From the NCBI RefSeq assembly GCF_001270745.1, contig NZ_KQ434754.1, positions 1-64,000 on the forward strand: a DNA stretch of 64,000 bases. The letters run 5' to 3'. Of the stretch, positions 55,845-64,000 are shown piece after piece. The position numbers and the translations under genes are program-made. The notes under the pieces were generated by a model. The model was given only the letters and a program-made list of their open reading frames with translations. It ran no database searches and was not told where the DNA came from. The stretch comes from Jiangella muralis. Lineage in GTDB: Bacteria > Actinomycetota > Actinomycetes > Jiangellales > Jiangellaceae. Every line of letters begins with the position of its first letter. Position 1 is the first letter of the stretch.

Positions 55845-58800
55845 ATGACGCGGACCGCCCGAGGACGCCGTAGCAACGACGGCGCCACGAAGCGGGCGCG
55901 CGCGAATCTGCGCCCAGCAGACCTGCGCCCAGCCGTGAAGTCCGGTCGTGCGAAGCAGAGCGGCGACGGCGAGCGCTCGCGGTCGTTCTGGCAGTCCTTC
56001 CTGCACGACCGCAGCGTCCGGTCGCGCGTCGCCGCACTGGTCCTCCTCCCGCTGCTCGGCACGCTCGTGCTCGGCACGCTGTTCTTCAAGAACTCGCTCG
56101 ACGACGCCTCGTCCGCCTCGCGCACCGAGAGCCTGGCCGAGGTCGGCATGGTGGCGCTGCAGGCCCTGCAGGCGGTGCAGGACGAGCGCGACGTCACCGG
56201 ACTCGCGGACGGCGGCGGCACCGAGCCGGCGTCGGTCGACACCGCCCGCGAGGCGACCGACGCCGCCATCGCCGCCCTGAACAAGGAGATCGACGAGCAC
56301 CGCGGCGACGACCTCGGCTCGGCCTACGCGGCCGCGGTCGAGCAGTACGAGACCGAGGTCGACCGGCTGAGCGGCACCACGAACGAGTCCAACTACCGTC
56401 TCCAGCGCGACGCCAAAAACCCGGCCTTCAACGACGGCGGCACCGCCGGCTACCACCGCTTCGCCGAGGTGCTGCAGCGGCTGGCCACCGCCGCCGCCAC
56501 CGGAACCGAGGACCCCGCGCTGGCCCGCCGCATCTCGGCGCTGGCCGACGTCGCCCAGGCGGTCGAGTCGGCGTCGCTCGAGCGTGGTGTCGTCGCCTAC
56601 TTCATGACACCGGGCGCCAAGCCCTCGCAGGTCGATCGCGACCAGGCCGTGGCGCTGCAAGGCGAGCAGTCCATGCTGCTGGACGGCCGGTTCCTCCGCG
56701 CCCTCGGCTTCACCGAGCAGCAGCGCATCTACTCCAACGAGATCTACGTCGCCAACCGCGACCTCACCCAGGCCCGCACCGACATCGCCGATTTCGCCGA
56801 GCCGCGCATCGACAAGGCGCAGTGGTGGGAGCTCTCGACGCAGCGCCTCGACGCCCTGCGCGACATCCAGCAGGACACCGGCAACAGCGTGCTGTCGCTG
56901 GCGGCCGACCGCACCGACAGCTCCCGGGTCACGGCGCTGTTCAGCGCGCTCGGCGTGCTCGCCGTCCTGGCGCTCACCGTCTACCTCGCCATCGTCGTGG
57001 CGCGGTCCATCATCGGCCCGCTGCGCCGGCTGCGCGCCTCGGCGCTCGAGACCGCGCAGACCCAGCTGCCGGCGCTGGTCGAGCGGGTGCACAAGGACGG
57101 CCCGACGGTGGCCCGCGACCTCCCCGACGCCGTCACGGCCGAGGGCCGCGACGAGATCGGCCAGGTCGCCACGGCGTTCAACGACGTCCACTCCACCGCC
57201 GTCCGGGTCGCCGCCGAGCAGGCGCTGCTGCGGCAGAACCTCGACACCATCGTCGTCAACCTCTCCCGCCGCACCCAGTCGCTGGTCGACCGCCAGCTCG
57301 GCGAGATCGAGGGCCTCGAGCAGCGCGAGCGCGACCCCGACCAGCTGAGCACGCTGTTCCGCATCGACCACATGGCCACCCGCGTCCGGCGGCACGCCGA
57401 GAGCCTCCTGGTCCTCGCCGGCGTCGAGGAGATGCGCAAGCACACCAGCGCGGCCGGCGTCCTCGACGTCGTCCGCACCGCGGTCGGCGAGGTCGAGCAG
57501 TACCCGCGGGTGAAGTTCGGCGTCATGCCGACCGACCTCATCACCGCCGGCGCCGTCGACGACATCGCCCACCTGCTGGCCGAGCTGATCGACAACGCCA
57601 CCGAGTTCTCCGCGCCGGCCACGCCGGTCCGGGTCACCAGCCAGCCGCTGCTCGGCGGCGGGCTGCGCCTGCAGGTCACCGACTCCGGCCTGGGCATCCC
57701 GGCCGGCCAGCTCGAGGAGCTGAACGAGCGGCTGCGCAACGTCGGCGACATCGACGTCGCGGCGTCCCGCACGCTGGGCCTCTACGTGGTCGCGCGGCTG
57801 GCCGCCAAGCACGGCATCCAGGTGCGGCTCGAGCCGGTGCCCGAGGGCGGCACGGCCGCGCAGGTCGACCTCCCGGCGCACCTCATCCTCTCCCCGCTCG
57901 ACACCAGCGAGGGCGTCATCCCGCCGGTTCCGGCCGAGCCGGTGGCGGCGCAGCCGGCCGGTGGCCTGAGCGACTCCTGGAACCTCGACCCGAGCCCGGC
58001 GCCGTTCCGCCGCGACGACTCCTCGCCGTCACTGCCGCTCACCGCGCCGGCCGTGTCCGGCCTGCCCCGCCGCGGCGAGCGTCCCGACGAGACCCGCATC
58101 CCGGTCGAGGCGTCCGACCTGCCGCGGCCGACGGCCGACCCCGCGCCCGCCATGGACGCCGGCCGGCCCACCTGGCCCAGCCCGGAGGAGTCGCGGCTAC
58201 GTCCCGACACCGGCGAGTCGCGCATCGCGCCCATCACGGCCGAGACCCGTTTCGACACCGGCGAGCACGCCGTCGCCGACACCGGTGAGCACAAGCTGGC
58301 CGAGACCGGCGAACGCCGCCTCTCCGACACCGGCGAGCGCCGGGTCTCGACCGACCACGGCGCCCGGCCCGACGACGCGTGGCGGCAGCCGCTGACCAAC
58401 GGCAGCACCGGCTCGGCGCTGCCGACCCGCGAGCCCCGGCAGGAGCCGCGGCCCGAGACCCGCCCGCCGGCGTCGCCGCCACCGGCCATGCCGGCCGTGC
58501 CCGCCGCGGCGGCCGCCCGTTCCTCGCTGCGAGCACCCGAGCCGGTGCTGCCGGACAGCGACTCGCCGATCTACGACTCCGTCGCCTCCGCCTGGTTCAG
58601 CCGGTCCGGCACCTCGACCACCGACGACTGGTCCAGCCCGGCCGACGAAGGCTGGCGGCGGGCCGCCGAGGCGCTGCGCTCCGCCGAAGAGGCGGCCAGC
58701 GCTCGCGCCGGCCAGCGCGACACCGAGCCGATCCAGGCGTCGCCGCGGGTGGGTTCCGGCTGGGCGAGCCGCGAGACGGCACCGCCGCCCCCGGTGCCCG

Positions 58801-59054
58801 AGCCGGTCGCGGAGGCCGAGCCCGCGCTCAGTGCGTCCGGACTGCCGCTGCGGCGGCGCGGCGCCTCGCTGGTGCCCGGCTCCATCGGCGAGCTCAACGA
58901 GACCGAACCCCGGCGCCCTGCCGCGGCGGCCAAGGACGCGAGTAACGTTGCCTCGACGCTGGCCAGCCTGCAGCGAGGTGTCGGGCGCGGCCGGGAGGAA
59001 ACCGGTGGTTGGGTCCCCAAGCGGCCCAGCGACCCCGAGAGGAGCGATTCGTGA
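55845..59054 (+). CDS. cvnA: Conservon sensor histidine kinase (nitrate/nitrite-sensor domain type)
   Basis: A 1069-residue kinase heading a conservon. Basic cytoplasmic start, TM1 (residues ~62-82), an outside nitrate/nitrite-sensing-like helical domain (to ~360), TM2 (~363-385), HAMP (IIGPLRRLRASALE), a helical segment with LFRIDHMATRVRRHAESLL, and the ATPase domain (LLAELIDNATEFSAPATPV, TDSGLGIPAGQLEELN). From ~690 on is a 380-residue disordered tail rich in Pro, Glu and TGE repeats. GGAAGGA precedes ATG 55845. Conservon proteins work as G-protein-like signalling modules in Streptomyces. The next gene overlaps by four bases. Confidence 0.92.
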   Translation: MTRTARGRRSNDGATKRARANLRPADLRPAVKSGRAKQSGDGERSRSFWQSFLHDRSVRSRVAALVLLPLLGTLVLGTLFFKNSLDDASSASRTESLAEVGMVALQALQAVQDERDVTGLADGGGTEPASVDTAREATDAAIAALNKEIDEHRGDDLGSAYAAAVEQYETEVDRLSGTTNESNYRLQRDAKNPAFNDGGTAGYHRFAEVLQRLATAAATGTEDPALARRISALADVAQAVESASLERGVVAYFMTPGAKPSQVDRDQAVALQGEQSMLLDGRFLRALGFTEQQRIYSNEIYVANRDLTQARTDIADFAEPRIDKAQWWELSTQRLDALRDIQQDTGNSVLSLAADRTDSSRVTALFSALGVLAVLALTVYLAIVVARSIIGPLRRLRASALETAQTQLPALVERVHKDGPTVARDLPDAVTAEGRDEIGQVATAFNDVHSTAVRVAAEQALLRQNLDTIVVNLSRRTQSLVDRQLGEIEGLEQRERDPDQLSTLFRIDHMATRVRRHAESLLVLAGVEEMRKHTSAAGVLDVVRTAVGEVEQYPRVKFGVMPTDLITAGAVDDIAHLLAELIDNATEFSAPATPVRVTSQPLLGGGLRLQVTDSGLGIPAGQLEELNERLRNVGDIDVAASRTLGLYVVARLAAKHGIQVRLEPVPEGGTAAQVDLPAHLILSPLDTSEGVIPPVPAEPVAAQPAGGLSDSWNLDPSPAPFRRDDSSPSLPLTAPAVSGLPRRGERPDETRIPVEASDLPRPTADPAPAMDAGRPTWPSPEESRLRPDTGESRIAPITAETRFDTGEHAVADTGEHKLAETGERRLSDTGERRVSTDHGARPDDAWRQPLTNGSTGSALPTREPRQEPRPETRPPASPPPAMPAVPAAAAARSSLRAPEPVLPDSDSPIYDSVASAWFSRSGTSTTDDWSSPADEGWRRAAEALRSAEEAASARAGQRDTEPIQASPRVGSGWASRETAPPPPVPEPVAEAEPALSASGLPLRRRGASLVPGSIGELNETEPRRPAAAAKDASNVASTLASLQRGVGRGREETGGWVPKRPSDPERSDS
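58206..58349 (+). repeat. Degenerate DTGE repeats in CvnA tail
   Basis: The coding frame repeats a short unit, (D/E)TGE followed by 4-8 variable residues, five to six times (DTGES, DTGEH, DTGEH, ETGER, DTGER). DNA copies share GACACCGGCGAG. A flexible interaction region or a slippage-prone tract. Confidence 0.65.
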
Positions 59055-59446
59055 CCAACGCCTCCAGCGACGAGCTCGGCTGGCTGCTCGACCGTTTCGT
59101 CGACCGCACCACGGGCGCCGCGCACGCGGTGGTGGTGTCCGCCGACGGTCTGCACCTGGCCGGCTCCACGGGCATGCCGCGTGAACGCGGCGAGCAGCTC
59201 GCTGCGGTGGTGTCCGGACTGGCCAGCCTCACGGTCGGCGCTTCGCTGATCCTGGGCGCGGGCACCGTCCAGCAGACCCTGGTAGAGATGAGCAACGGCT
59301 TCCTGCTGGTCATGGCGGTCGGCGACGGCGCGCACCTGGCCGTGCTGGCAGCCTCCACCGCCGACCTCGGTCAGGTGGGCTACGAGATGGCCCTGCTCGT
59401 GGAACGCGTGGGCGCCGTCCTCAACCCGGCCACCCGGGTGGGGTGA
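59051..59446 (+). CDS. cvnB: Conservon roadblock/LC7 protein
   Basis: A 131-residue roadblock/LC7-fold protein: ELGWLLDRFVDRTTGAAHAV, SADGLHLAGSTGMPRERGEQ and GNGFL-like MSNGFLLVMAVGDGAHLAVL. Such proteins regulate the small GTPase (here CvnD), in the manner of MglB. GTG at 59051 overlaps the cvnA stop (GTGA). Confidence 0.93.
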   Translation: MTNASSDELGWLLDRFVDRTTGAAHAVVVSADGLHLAGSTGMPRERGEQLAAVVSGLASLTVGASLILGAGTVQQTLVEMSNGFLLVMAVGDGAHLAVLAASTADLGQVGYEMALLVERVGAVLNPATRVG

Positions 59447-59530
59447 GAATCGACGTGCACGAGTGCCGGATGTGGTAGGGATTCGGGTCAGCAGCGCGCA
59501 GATCTGCGATCCGACGATGGTCTGGAGGTC

Positions 59531-59896
59531 ATGATGGCGGCACCTGACGGCCGGAGGGTACGGCCGTACCTTGCGACGCGTGGGCGCACGCGCCCGGTGC
59601 AGGACATCGCCATCGAGGCCCTCGTCTCCACCACGAAGGACGGCCGCACCAACGGCTCCGACCCGGAGCCGGAACGGGAGCGGATCCTCCGGCTGTGCCA
59701 CTCGCCACGGTCCGTGGCCGAGGTGGCCGCAATCGTCTCGATGCCACTCGGCGTGGCCCGCGTGCTCGTCGCGGACCTCGAGACCGAAGGACTGGTGCGG
59801 GTCGCTGACCCGCATGCGGCGTTCGCCGGCTCCGAGGAGCCGGCTCGTAATCTGAGCGTGCTGGAAAGGGTGAGGGATGGCCTTCGTCGACTCTGA
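59531..59896 (+). CDS. cvnC: Conservon DUF742 protein
   Basis: A 121-residue DUF742 protein: RRVRPYLATRGRTRP at the start, then a winged-helix-like part (ILRLCHSPRSVAEVAAIVSM and GVARVLVADLETEGLVRV). It may link sensor and GTPase. ATG at 59531; GGAGG spacing favours the next ATG at 59534. It overlaps cvnD by 20 bases. Confidence 0.92.
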   Translation: MMAAPDGRRVRPYLATRGRTRPVQDIAIEALVSTTKDGRTNGSDPEPERERILRLCHSPRSVAEVAAIVSMPLGVARVLVADLETEGLVRVADPHAAFAGSEEPARNLSVLERVRDGLRRL

Positions 59897-60473
59897 GGTG
59901 TCTGGCGGCACACAGGCCGACCAAGACGCGCTGTCGGTCAAGATCGTCGTGGCCGGCGGTTTCGGCGTGGGCAAGACGACGTTCGTCGGCGCGGTCAGCG
60001 AGATCGAGCCGCTGCGCACCGAGGCACTGATGACGGAGGCCTCGACCAGCGTCGACGACCTCTCCATGCTGCCCGACAAGCGCACCACGACCGTCGCCAT
60101 GGACTTCGGCCGCATCACGCTGGCCGACGACCTCGTGCTGTACCTCTTCGGCACGCCGGGTCAGAACCGGTTCTGGTTCATGTGGGACGACATCACCCGC
60201 GGCGCCATCGGCGCGGTCGTGCTCGTCGACACCCGCCGCCTGGCCGACTGCTTCGGCGCCATCGACTACGTCGAGCAGCGCGGCATCCCGTTCGTCGTCG
60301 CGCTCAACGCGTTCAACGGCATCCAGGAGCACGACGTCGAGGACGTCCGCGACGCTCTCCAGGTCGGCCCCGAGGTCCCGTTCGTCGTCACCGACGCGCG
60401 CGACCGCGAGTCGGTCAAGGTCGTGCTCGTCACGCTGGTCGAGCACGCGATGTCGCTGATCCAGCAGACCTGA
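59877..60473 (+). CDS. cvnD: Conservon small GTPase
   Basis: A 198-residue small GTPase (MglA-like, ATP_bind_1). P-loop GGFGVGKTT (residues ~27-35), switch region with DDLSMLPDKRTTTVAMDFG, G3-like FGTPGQNRF, and base-binding NAFNG. Partner CvnB is expected to modulate nucleotide state. Closes the conservon cvnABCD; the optional cytochrome P450 of some conservons is absent. Confidence 0.94.
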   Translation: MAFVDSEVSGGTQADQDALSVKIVVAGGFGVGKTTFVGAVSEIEPLRTEALMTEASTSVDDLSMLPDKRTTTVAMDFGRITLADDLVLYLFGTPGQNRFWFMWDDITRGAIGAVVLVDTRRLADCFGAIDYVEQRGIPFVVALNAFNGIQEHDVEDVRDALQVGPEVPFVVTDARDRESVKVVLVTLVEHAMSLIQQT

Positions 60474-60518
60474 CCCGGTTCGCCGGAACCTCCCGCGCGC
60501 ACTGTCCGTCCTAGTGAC

Positions 60519-62120
60519 ATGCGTCACAGGGGGTGGCTGGCCGGGCTCGTCATCACGCTGACGGCGTGCACCGCGGCGGACGCCGAGCCCGGCGACGCCG
60601 CGACCGCACCGGAGGAGCAGCGTTACACGGGCACGTTCACGGTGCTCGAGAGTGCTGAGCACGGCCCGCAACTGTGCCCCGCGGGCGCGCTCGCGAGCTA
60701 CCCGCCGCAGTGCGGCGGCCCGGACATCCCGAACTGGGACTGGGACGCCGTCGAGCACGAGACGATCGACGGCGTCAGCTGGGGCGACTACCAGGTCACC
60801 GGCACCTTCGACGGCGCCGTGTTCACGCTGACCGAGCCGGCCGGACCGCCCGAGCCGTCGGACCGGCAGCCGCGGTCGCCCGGCCCCGACCTCGACACAC
60901 CTTGCCCGGCGCCGGCGGGCGGCTGGGTGCTCGCCAACCCCGCCACCGCGAGCACCGAGGCGCTCGCCGCCACCGTCGACTACGCCGCGACGCTGCCCGG
61001 CTACGGCGGCCTGTGGGTCGATCGCGAGGTGGAGCAGCCGCCGGACGCGCCACCTCCGGCCGCCGCGCCGGGGGCCATCCTCAACGTCGCCTTCACCGGC
61101 GACCTCGCCGCGCGCGAGGCGGAGCTGCGCGCCGTCTGGGGCGGCGCGCTCTGCGTCACGCAGGCCCGGCACCCGCACACGCGGCTGGAGGAGATCCAGG
61201 CGGAGCTGGCCGGGAAGCACGGCATCTTCTCCGCCGCCGTGATGGAGCAGGAGAACCTCGTCGACGTCCAGGCGCTGTTCGACGATGGCCTGCAGGAGCG
61301 GCTCGACGACGAGTACGGACCCGACACCGTCCGGGTGACCGCCTCCTTGCGGCCGGTGCCACCCTCCGACGCCGCGCCGACGATCTACGAAGGCACGTTC
61401 TTCGTGCACGAGCGGCCGGACGGTCCGCCGCACGCCTGCTGGGCGGTCATGGAGTCCTACCCGCCGCAGTGCGGCGGGGACATCGAGGTGCGCGGCTGGT
61501 CCTGGGACGACGTCGGCGGCGAAGAGTCGGCCGACGGCGTGACTTGGGGCGACTACCACATCAGAGGGACCTGGGACGGCACCGCGCTGACGCTGACCGG
61601 GCCGGCTGAACCGCCACCGCCCCGCGACGAGCAGGAGGACCCGTTCCCGCCGTTCGACACGCTCTGCCCCACCCCGCCCGGCGGCTGGGCGATCCTCGAC
61701 GGCGCGTTGACACACTCGGCTGACTTCGACGCCGCGTACGCCTACGCCCGCGCCGCGCCCGGCTACGTCGACCTCTGGCTGGACCGCGACGTGCCGATGG
61801 AAGACCGGTCGGCGACGGCGCCGGCCGAGATCGTCGTCAACGTGCGGTTCACCGCCGACCTCGCCACCCACGAGGCCGCGCTGCGGAGCCTGTACGGCGG
61901 CGCCATCTGCGTGAGCCAGGCCGAGCGCACTGAGCAGGAACTGGAGGCGATCGCCGCCGAGATCCGGACCGAGTACGACGCCATCTCCTCGTCGAGCTAC
62001 TCGGCGACCAACTCGGTGTGGATCCAGGTGGTCGTCGACGACGGCCTGCAGGAACGGCTCGACGAGCAGTACGGGCCGGGCGTGGTACGGGTCGAGGCGC
62101 TGCTGCAGCCGGTGGACTGA
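60519..62120 (+). CDS. Lipoprotein with two copies of an unrecognised four-Cys module
   Basis: A 533-residue lipoprotein. The short signal ends at a lipobox with Cys17 (LTLTACT). Two modules follow, residues 36-281 and 290-533, that share SYPPQCGG, W.WD, GV.WG.Y, a C..GGW segment, FT.DL...EAELR, GG..CV and VDDGLQERLDEQYG. Each module has four matched cysteines, suiting two disulfides outside the cell. Module 2 lacks the PQLC form but keeps a Cys. No known domain is recognised. It directly follows cvnD and is followed by a one-module paralogue. Confidence 0.85.
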   Translation: MRHRGWLAGLVITLTACTAADAEPGDAATAPEEQRYTGTFTVLESAEHGPQLCPAGALASYPPQCGGPDIPNWDWDAVEHETIDGVSWGDYQVTGTFDGAVFTLTEPAGPPEPSDRQPRSPGPDLDTPCPAPAGGWVLANPATASTEALAATVDYAATLPGYGGLWVDREVEQPPDAPPPAAAPGAILNVAFTGDLAAREAELRAVWGGALCVTQARHPHTRLEEIQAELAGKHGIFSAAVMEQENLVDVQALFDDGLQERLDDEYGPDTVRVTASLRPVPPSDAAPTIYEGTFFVHERPDGPPHACWAVMESYPPQCGGDIEVRGWSWDDVGGEESADGVTWGDYHIRGTWDGTALTLTGPAEPPPPRDEQEDPFPPFDTLCPTPPGGWAILDGALTHSADFDAAYAYARAAPGYVDLWLDRDVPMEDRSATAPAEIVVNVRFTADLATHEAALRSLYGGAICVSQAERTEQELEAIAAEIRTEYDAISSSSYSATNSVWIQVVVDDGLQERLDEQYGPGVVRVEALLQPVD

Positions 62121-62162
62121 GGCCGGCCGGAACGCCGTGGCCTCGACCGACGTCCAAGTGGC

Positions 62163-63002
62163 ATGCGTCACTTCGGGTGGATCGTCGCCGCGCCGGTCGC
62201 GGCCCTGCTGCTCGCCGCCTGCGGCGATGAGGAGGCGCCCGTCAGCGCCTCGCCGTCGGACCTGCCGTCGTCCGCCGACCCCGGCCAGCTCTACACCGGG
62301 ATCTTCACCGTCCTCGAGAGCCCCGAGCACGGCCCGCAGCTGTGCAGCATGGTGGCGGAGTCCTATCCGCCGCAGTGCGGCGGTCCCGACATCGCCGGCT
62401 GGAACTGGGACGACGCGCCCGACGCCGAGTCCGCCAGCGGCGTCACCTGGGGTTTCTACTCCGTCACGGGCACCTGGGACGGCAGCACGTTCACGCTGAC
62501 CGAGCCGCCGCTGCCCGGCGCGGCCACCTCGCCGGTGGTTCCCGATGACGCGGCGCCCGACTTCACCTCGCCGTGCGAGCCGTCGGCCGGCGGGTGGGCC
62601 GTCACGGACCCCGCGACCGCCACCGACGCCGCGCTGAACGCCGTCAACGCGTACGTCGACGAGCAGGCCGACGGCGCGGGCATGTGGGTCGACTCCTCCG
62701 TCCAGCCCACCGTGCTCAACGCCCGGTTCACCGGCGACCTCGACGCGCACGAGGCCGAGTTGCGCGGGCTCTGGGGCGGCCCGCTGTGTGTCAGTGCGGC
62801 CGACCGCAGCACGCGGGACCTCACCGCGATCCAGGACGAGCTCACCGCGGCCGTCCCCGACCTGCTCTCCGTCGGCCCGGAGGTCACGGCCAACGCCGTG
62901 CAGCTGAGCGTGTTCGTCGACGACGGGCTGCAGGCGGAGCTGGACGCGCAGTATGGCGAGGGCGTCGTCGTCGTGAGCGCCACGCTGCGGCCGGTCGAGT
63001 GA
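62163..63002 (+). CDS. Lipoprotein with one copy of the same four-Cys module
   Basis: A 279-residue paralogue of the preceding gene. Lipobox at Cys20 (LLLAACGDE), a Ser/Pro-rich spacer, then one module (residues 44-279): FTVLESPEHGPQLC, SYPPQCGGPDIAGW, SGVTWGFYSVTGTWDG, ...GGW, FTGDLDAHEAELRGLWGG, LCVSA and VDDGLQAELDAQYGEG. It matches module 1 of the neighbour most closely, suggesting duplication. Function unknown; export and disulfide pairing inferred. Confidence 0.85.
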   Translation: MRHFGWIVAAPVAALLLAACGDEEAPVSASPSDLPSSADPGQLYTGIFTVLESPEHGPQLCSMVAESYPPQCGGPDIAGWNWDDAPDAESASGVTWGFYSVTGTWDGSTFTLTEPPLPGAATSPVVPDDAAPDFTSPCEPSAGGWAVTDPATATDAALNAVNAYVDEQADGAGMWVDSSVQPTVLNARFTGDLDAHEAELRGLWGGPLCVSAADRSTRDLTAIQDELTAAVPDLLSVGPEVTANAVQLSVFVDDGLQAELDAQYGEGVVVVSATLRPVE

Positions 63003-63065
63003 CGCGCTCTGCCCTGAGCAGACGAGCGTGACCGGCGCCCGGACCGCTGGCTAGCGTCGGACGCC

Positions 63066-64000
63066 ATGAGCCGTCATGCGATCGTCGTCGGCAGCACCGG
63101 CCAGATCGGCCGCGCCGCCGTGGAGTCCCTGCTCGACGACGGCTGGTCCGTCACGGCCGTGCACCGCGGCAGCACCACGGCACCGTCAGGCTGGGCCCGG
63201 CGCGGCGTCGACGAGCGGCTGGCCGACCGCGCGGACCTCGCCGGCGTGCTGCGCGAGACCGGCGGCGCCGACGTCCTGCTCGACACCATCGCCTACGACG
63301 ACGCCGACGCGCGGCTGCTGCTGGGCCTGGCCGGCGACGTCGGCTCGCTGATCGTCGTCTCCAGCGCCTCGGTGTACGCCGACGACGCGGGCCGCACGCT
63401 GGACGAGGCGACCGGGCCGGACGACTTCCCGCGCTTCGCCGGGCCGGTGCCGGAGACCCAGGCCACGACGGCGCCGGGGCCGGCCACCTACTCGACGAAG
63501 AAGCTGCTGCTGGAGAACACCCTGCTCGACGACGGCCGGCTGCCGGTCACCGTGCTGCGGCCGTGCGCCATCCACGGCCCGGGCAGCACCAGCCCGCGCG
63601 AGGTCTGGCCGCTGCTGCGCGCGCTGGACCGGCGGCCGCGCATCCCGCTGTCGCACGGCGGCCGCAGCCGGTTCCACACCACCAGCGCGGCGAACCTCGG
63701 CGAGCTGGTCCGGCTCGCGGCCGGGCGCCCGGCCAGCCGGATCCTCAACGCCGGCGACCCGGAGCCGCCGTCCGTCGCCGACATCGTCCGGATCGTCAGC
63801 GCCACCGCCGGCCACGAGCCGGAGCTGGTGCCTCTGGACGGCCCGGCGCCGGCCAGCGGCGTCGGGCGCACCCCGTGGTCCGTGCCGCGCCCGTTCCTCG
63901 TGGCCATGACGGCGGCGGCGACGGAGCTGGGCTACGTGCCGGTCGCGAGCTACGCCGAGGCCGTCGAGTCGACGTCGGCCTGGCTGCGCGGCCGGCTCGC
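63066..64000 (+). CDS. NAD(P)-dependent epimerase/reductase (C-terminus cut)
   Basis: Runs off the right edge with ~311 residues shown. Rossmann motif IVVGSTGQIGRAAVESLL (residues ~5-22); the catalytic region has VVSSASVYAD followed by TYSTKKLLLEN (Tyr and Lys of the YxxxK type) and LRPCAIHGPGS, as in extended SDR epimerases. Substrate unknown. ATG at 63066. Confidence 0.88.
   Translation, partial: MSRHAIVVGSTGQIGRAAVESLLDDGWSVTAVHRGSTTAPSGWARRGVDERLADRADLAGVLRETGGADVLLDTIAYDDADARLLLGLAGDVGSLIVVSSASVYADDAGRTLDEATGPDDFPRFAGPVPETQATTAPGPATYSTKKLLLENTLLDDGRLPVTVLRPCAIHGPGSTSPREVWPLLRALDRRPRIPLSHGGRSRFHTTSAANLGELVRLAAGRPASRILNAGDPEPPSVADIVRIVSATAGHEPELVPLDGPAPASGVGRTPWSVPRPFLVAMTAAATELGYVPVASYAEAVESTSAWLRGRL

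Follow-up and report, generated by a model that had tools for sequence, protein, structure and literature searches.

A widespread family of actinobacterial lipoproteins whose C-terminal half is related to the pro regions of alpha-lytic-type proteases

Two adjacent genes in a 64,000-nucleotide stretch of the Jiangella muralis genome (referred to as a whole as the window) encode members of a real, widespread, and unnamed lipoprotein family, the C-terminal half of which appears to be related to the pro regions of alpha-lytic-type proteases and carries no protease. In the alpha-lytic protease family, pro regions are well-known catalysts of folding and, to our knowledge, have been met only as throw-away parts of proteases. 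Their two-domain body is now found on lipoproteins and on a cell-wall-binding protein, in each case with no protease attached. An unnamed actinobacterial family gains a fold and a testable activity, propeptide-derived proteins are extended to the chymotrypsin-like clan, and the lipoproteins provide a natural example of a pro region released from its client.

Two lipoprotein genes and their three modules

All features described here lie on the + strand. Gene 1 (60519..62120), delimited from its open reading frame and the module alignment, encodes a two-module lipoprotein of 533 amino acids, and gene 2 (62163..63002), delimited from its open reading frame, encodes a one-module lipoprotein of 279 amino acids. 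The two genes are 42 bp apart on one strand; a scan revealed no terminator-like site between them, and promoter and terminator scans were empty. By sequence, each protein begins with a signal peptide and a lipobox that fits the SPase II pattern L-x-A/G-C, namely LTAC with Cys17 in gene 1 (60519..60569) and LAAC with Cys20 in gene 2 (62163..62222). Among named relatives, J. endophytica is the closest found, with 80% identity across gene 2.

The three modules are co-linear over approx. 240-250 alignment columns and share 48-51% identity. Moreover, a search with gene 2 as the query retrieves both remaining modules of this genome with E values of 1e-58 and 3e-52, far above chance. A preliminary description of this DNA had proposed three modules with a set of common motifs (e.g., SYPPQCGG, W.WD, and EAELR) and four matched cysteines each; in the alignment, the motifs are largely invariant, and the cysteine count is exact, the sole extra cysteine of each protein being that of the lipobox.

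Each module consists of a beta-rich N-domain followed by two units, R1 and R2. In module 1 (M1), the N-domain (60624..60839), placed by alignment and by homology to the model described below, contains the cysteine pair 53/65, while the model, half-profile comparisons, and sequence together assign R1 (60951..61172) as similar to the N-domain of a pro region and R2 (61176..61358) as similar to its C-domain. In module 2 (M2), the N-domain (61386..61604) was placed by alignment and sequence; R1 (61713..61928) and R2 (61929..62117), which reaches the C-terminus of gene 1, were assigned from alignment, half-profile comparisons, and sequence. Module 3 (M3), encoded by gene 2, has an N-domain (62292..62507) with a disulfide, Cys61-Cys72, predicted from AlphaFold2 models and the co-distribution of cysteines. 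Its R1 (62622..62807) is an alpha-beta-beta-alpha-beta unit according to the model, structure alignment, half-profile comparison, and cysteine co-distribution, and a second predicted disulfide, Cys138-Cys209, joins the linker to R1. The last unit, R2 (62808..62999), forms the end of the gene 2 chain and was assigned from the model, structure alignment, and half-profile comparison.

Predicted fold and structural neighbours

Module 3 was modelled with AlphaFold2 from a 10-row alignment that combined modules from the window with others from Jiangella (pLDDT 81.5, pTM 0.72). The model comprises, in order, the beta-rich N-domain, a disordered linker (residues 84-97), R1 (116-173), and R2 (178-238), with R1 and R2 predicted as successive alpha-beta-beta-alpha-beta units. 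A direct comparison of the two units is suggestive of an internal repeat (P 0.0022). In a Foldseek search against the PDB, the top seven matches were all pro-region chains of alpha-lytic protease (best E 2.6e-4, prob 1.0; TM-target 0.50-0.62 for the pro-region matches), and all five matches with E <= 0.001 were among them. VIA-align superimposed the model (residues 108-237) on chain 3pro_D (residues 23-161) with a Z score of 7.1 and, for 122 residues, an rmsd of 4.4 A; the next protein of another kind had a Z score of 5.5 and an rmsd of 9.2 A. A Z score of 7.1 is modest on its own, but it exceeds those of unrelated rows and fits what the sequences show. The predicted structure of module 3 thus has the two-domain fold of a pro region. 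At the end of the structural alignment, model residue 237 corresponds to residue 161 of the 166 residues of the pro region and three residues of the lipoprotein remain; therefore, the lipoprotein would stop approx. 2 residues before the position of the cut site. The N-domain modelled alone (pLDDT 72) had no Foldseek match under E 0.09 and gave one VIA row, 3nqi, with a Z score of 5.0, which is within noise.

Profile evidence for homology to pro regions

The sequence comparison used 20 pro regions extracted from PF02983 proteases of related genomes. When the C-parts of 41 long-form family members were compared with this set by hhalign, the match had a P value of 4.6e-8 (prob 94.9). Its score of 51.7 lies well outside the distribution of 200 column shuffles (mean 11.8, sd 2.5, max 23.5), and reversed-alignment controls gave P values of 0.23 and 0.32, while a control with the N-domain of the family gave 0.77. 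The match does not depend on one lineage, as the P value was 6.5e-8 with Jiangella sequences only and 3e-6 with non-Jiangellaceae sequences only. In particular, R1 fits the N-terminal half of the pro regions (P 6.4e-5) and not the C-terminal half (P 0.39), and R2 fits the C-terminal half (P 1.7e-5) better than the N-terminal one (P 0.012), so the match is co-linear and in the right order. In a blind retrieval with the C-part profile against 6689 open reading frames, the best four non-family matches were all pro regions.

A phylum-wide search also yielded proteins that match the C-part alone, from genomes outside the class (L171-L175). Three of these bridging proteins are lipoprotein-like by sequence (L171, L172, and L174), one (L173:1871-4018, genome G601) carries CWB2 cell-wall-binding domains (Pfam E 2e-44), and one (L175) is another secreted-looking protein with a pro-region-like unit. 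Aligned jointly, the bridging proteins match the family with a P value of 3.4e-21 and the pro regions with a P value of 6.7e-11, the latter over 105 columns that span both halves. No protease domain was detected in them by Pfam, and none is recognised by the PF02983 model. A possible nearest protease-linked form was noticed in L126 (G031:C37:181254), an S1-like peptidase (LLTAGHC) with a pro region that contains YAGAWIDQ and is very like the lipoprotein family.

Taken together, the profile match, its controls, the co-linearity, the blind retrieval, and the bridging proteins give good support, at the level of sequence profiles, to the homology of R1R2 with pro regions of the alpha-lytic type, though the PF02983 model itself does not reach the family (it matched neither window protein at E values up to 1 and none of 37 relatives at values up to 0.1). 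With the predicted fold added, it is highly probable that R1R2 is such a relative. The back half of the module is no longer of unknown descent.

Lipoproteins and pro regions share the same two alpha-beta-beta-alpha-beta units in the same order, as known for alpha-lytic protease (S1E, PF02983; 2pro/3pro/4pro), as well as profile homology over both units, a chain end near the cut site, and the motifs YAGxWxD, xSxxELxxIxxxL, and VDxxxNxVxV. The lipoproteins differ in that no protease follows, a lipid anchor is present, and PF02983 is undetected; they also possess an additional conserved beta domain at the N-terminus, with one predicted disulfide, and a second predicted disulfide in R1. The prosegment of SGPB retains the C-domain, and long and short forms exist among pro regions and lipoproteins alike, the difference being similar and made up by the N-unit. 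The prosegments of alpha-lytic protease and SGPB are 166 and 76 residues long, respectively (PMC4077824).

Distribution and architecture of the family

No match to Pfam-A or NCBIfam was obtained for the two window proteins or 37 relatives, and PDB sequence searches with the window proteins or the 37-member alignment returned no relative; the earlier remark that no family could be recognised stands. Matches to streptavidin (E 0.027), pheromone, and phage-coat proteins were rejected as weak and confined to single members. The motif YPPQCGG was not found in the literature searched. The family occurs widely among Actinomycetota: carriers comprise 20 of 60 near-relative genomes, 53 of the 394 genomes sampled across the class, and 19 of 246 across the phylum, some of the last being C-part-only matches. 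Since the plasmids, phages, and viral contigs searched contained no relative, there is no support for a mobile-element origin.

Two architectures are found. The long form, to which the window proteins belong, is the module of approx. 240 residues; the short form consists of the N-domain and the last ~62 residues, so that R2 is kept and R1 is absent. In a 51-member alignment, every long form (41/41) has all four cysteines, and every short form (10/10) has exactly the first two and no other. It is this distribution that predicts disulfides between cysteines 1 and 2 (Cys61-72) and between cysteines 3 and 4 (Cys138-209, gene 2 numbering), and it lends good inferential support to the earlier suggestion of a disulfide-bonded domain. 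The lipobox pattern is present in 46 of 55 family rows, most of the misses being remnants, and almost every intact member has one. Conservation is highest in the N-domain, with its motifs PPQC, W.WD, WG, and GT.DG, and is also strong in R2 and in both the strand and the tail at the C-terminus (L236, P238, G226, Q218, and D222); in intact members the chain stops a few residues past the last strand.

Duplication, decay, and evolutionary rate

The preliminary description had envisaged a recently duplicated, secreted, lipid-anchored, and undescribed family. All of this is supported except the timing. In a tree of the modules, M1, M2, and M3 of different Jiangella species form three separate clades with long stems, which indicates that the duplications predate the radiation of the carrier species and are not recent. 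Copy number later fell in Jiangella: two genomes (G005 and G003) retain only M3, and another (G008) retains M2 and M3. In Jiangella aurantiaca (G007; L041:8669-10891 / L062), gene 1 looks broken: the frame of module 1 stops partway through the module and module 2 lies in a different one, a pattern that would fit a deletion within the gene, between its modules. Module remnants with frameshifts or stops lie downstream of M3 in G001 (L056) and G002 (L057), and such remnants are all that is left in G006 (L061). Across Jiangella, gene 2 evolves fast (median dN/dS 0.52); the corresponding values for the genes of the conservon upstream are 0.05-0.07 for cvnB-D and a median of 0.40 for cvnA. As a separate observation, cvnA (55845-59054) diverges much faster than cvnB-D across the genus.

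Proposed function and alternatives

The best explanation of the module, held with slightly less than even confidence, is that it is a surface-tethered, protease-free pro-region relative that binds or inhibits extracellular proteases. In such a mechanism, the lipid anchor and the beta domain of ~75 residues would hold the pro-region-like R1+R2 body outside the membrane, the sheet of R2 might, on the pattern of the alpha-lytic protease complex, pair with a hairpin at the edge of a chymotrypsin-like protease, and the short tail at the C-terminus might come close to the active site, so that the lipoprotein could bind and inhibit extracellular proteases at the cell surface. In PMC2829044, which cites Sauter 1998, the pro-protease junction of alpha-lytic protease is described as lying across the active site, and a hairpin of the protease as forming a five-stranded sheet together with Pro. 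Free-standing propeptide-like inhibitors are known from other protease families, i.e., SUB1-ProM (PMC6993865) and CTLA-2 and crammer (PMC4089206). SUB1-ProM of Plasmodium (subtilisin type) and CTLA-2/crammer (cathepsin type, I29) are likewise propeptides that exist without their protease; however, they belong to other protease families and folds, they are neither membrane-anchored nor in tandem as the lipoproteins are, and inhibition has been shown for them, whereas here it is inferred. A shared fold does not establish a shared function, and protease binding or inhibition as such, which is argued by analogy, is considered possible but somewhat doubtful.

Pfam detects no protease domain in the window lipoproteins, the chains of which end soon after the last strand. 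Because a recognisable PF02983 protease of their own is absent from 46 of the 53 sampled carriers, all Jiangella included, a foreign protease would be a likelier target than a cognate one; in 12 Jiangella genomes, no PF02983 protease exceeds the cut-off. In the class sample of 394 genomes, the lipoprotein and a PF02983 protease occur together in 7 genomes against 14.3 expected, a deficit (Fisher p 0.019) that is confounded by phylogeny. Given this lack of positive co-occurrence, there is no obvious endogenous target. Further points against this explanation are that the tail of the family is approx. 2 residues shorter than that of alpha-lytic protease and that the role of the best-conserved part, the N-domain, is not accounted for. 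A wider proposal, which is rather unlikely, would make the family a widespread unnamed class in Actinomycetota of tethered, protease-free pro regions that inhibit the chymotrypsin-like proteases of neighbours or predators, with the tandem copies, fast divergence, and decay in Jiangella reflecting changing targets.

A serious rival, plausible enough to be weighed but on balance doubtful, is that the fold of the pro region has been put to new use as a general-purpose extracellular domain that binds a ligand, peptidoglycan, or protein and has no protease partner. The bridging lipoproteins and the CWB2 protein, which carry the same unit on other anchors without a protease, would fit such re-use, as would the absence of positive co-occurrence with PF02983 and the high conservation of the N-domain; however, it does not account well for the strong conservation of R2 and the C-terminal strand and tail, or for intact chains that end just past the last strand, as expected if the end matters. 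The module might alternatively serve in trans as a membrane-based steric chaperone for a secreted protease of the same cell. Pro regions are foldases, and the genome of the window encodes at least two secreted trypsin-type (IVGG) S1 proteases without a large or alpha-lytic-type pro region of their own. Membrane-based steric chaperones exist (PMC3352829), such as the lipase-specific foldase Lif, which acts from outside the enzyme's own chain; the client of Lif is known, and no sequence relation to the lipoproteins is claimed. Such a role is nevertheless unlikely, and less likely than inhibition of a foreign protease, because Jiangella has no PF02983 protease over the cut-off, co-occurrence is rare, and the host proteases are of the trypsin type rather than the kinetically trapped alpha-lytic type; moreover, in most carriers no protease gene lies beside the lipoprotein gene. 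The alpha-beta-beta-alpha-beta order also recalls BON-domain phospholipid-binding lipoproteins of the DolP kind, and DolP (7a2d, E 1.4e-2) and BonA (6v4v, E 1.5e-2) do appear lower in the Foldseek list. This candidate, considered from topology, is disfavoured to the point of being highly improbable: 17 BON domains show no similarity at the profile level by hhalign (P 0.11-0.18), PF04972 is not matched, and the rmsd is over 10 A compared with about 4 A for the pro region.

The remaining alternative arises from the conservon directly upstream (55845..60473), a neighbour identified by Pfam that comprises cvnA (55845-59054), cvnB (59009-59446), cvnC (59531-59896), and cvnD (59877-60473) and encodes a NIT-HAMP-HATPase kinase, a Roadblock protein, a DUF742 protein, and a GTPase. 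The lipoprotein might be an accessory input comparable to CvnE or CvnF that acts as an extracellular sensor and passes its signal to the CvnA kinase. Gene 1 begins 45 bp after cvnD on the same strand, with no terminator-like site in the gap, and CvnA has an extracytoplasmic NIT domain (Pfam E 2.5e-22); the Jiangella loci, L069, and L070 all preserve the adjacency, and a transporter gene intervenes in a further Jiangellaceae locus (L068). However, six Jiangellaceae (G012, G015, G016, G018, G019, and G020) share the INO1-cvn block, with CvnD 86-96% identical, and have no lipoprotein; cvnD is followed there by a convergent CCA-adding-enzyme gene, with a short predicted open reading frame in between in three of them. 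No cvn genes lie beside the lipoprotein gene in L067 or the non-Jiangellaceae loci, within the flanks examined, and the high dN/dS of gene 2 differs sharply from that of cvnB-D. The known accessories are also located just after cvnD, but they are a cytochrome P450 (CvnE) and a GAF protein (CvnF), with domains that Pfam does not find in the lipoproteins, and both accompany CvnA kinases without an extracytoplasmic NIT domain (PMC13343842), whereas here an extracytoplasmic lipoprotein stands beside a NIT-bearing CvnA and is absent from relatives that keep the conservon. An accessory function is thus very unlikely. As for the link to the conservon suggested in the preliminary description, the genes are neighbours in Jiangella and in three more Jiangellaceae (one with a gene between) but not in the six Jiangellaceae that lack the lipoprotein or in the non-Jiangellaceae carriers examined; the link is weak and lineage-local. 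Shared transcription with the conservon is possible, and a dedicated conservon role is not supported.

Other genomic neighbourhoods

On the other side, the lipoprotein genes are followed by a NAD-dependent epimerase-like gene (63066..64000, +; Pfam) that runs off the window and is likewise a neighbour only. In Jiangellaceae, the content of the interval from cvnD to the convergent CCA-adding-enzyme gene varies (window 60474-64000; L108-L113): it includes no lipoprotein in six genomes and, elsewhere, lipoproteins with or without the epimerase gene.

Outside Jiangellaceae, no conserved partner was found, the hemQ/msrB and leuA/era neighbourhoods each being conserved only inside one taxonomic family. 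In one locus (L071, genome G037), the family gene lies between genes for a secreted metallopeptidase-like protein (HEIGHGFGLDD) and a trypsin-like protease (TAAHC), an arrangement that was not observed in the congeners L080 and L084. In Microbacteriaceae-like genomes (L090, L092, and L095), the short form adjoins a leuA-like gene and, in L092, also an era-like gene. In Nocardioidaceae-like genomes (L077, L078, L079, L081, L082, L089, and L091), the family gene is located just downstream of a gene resembling that of HemQ (coproheme decarboxylase) and is convergent with an msrB-like gene, both names having been assigned by eye from sequence; these surroundings may provide a heme or redox lead.
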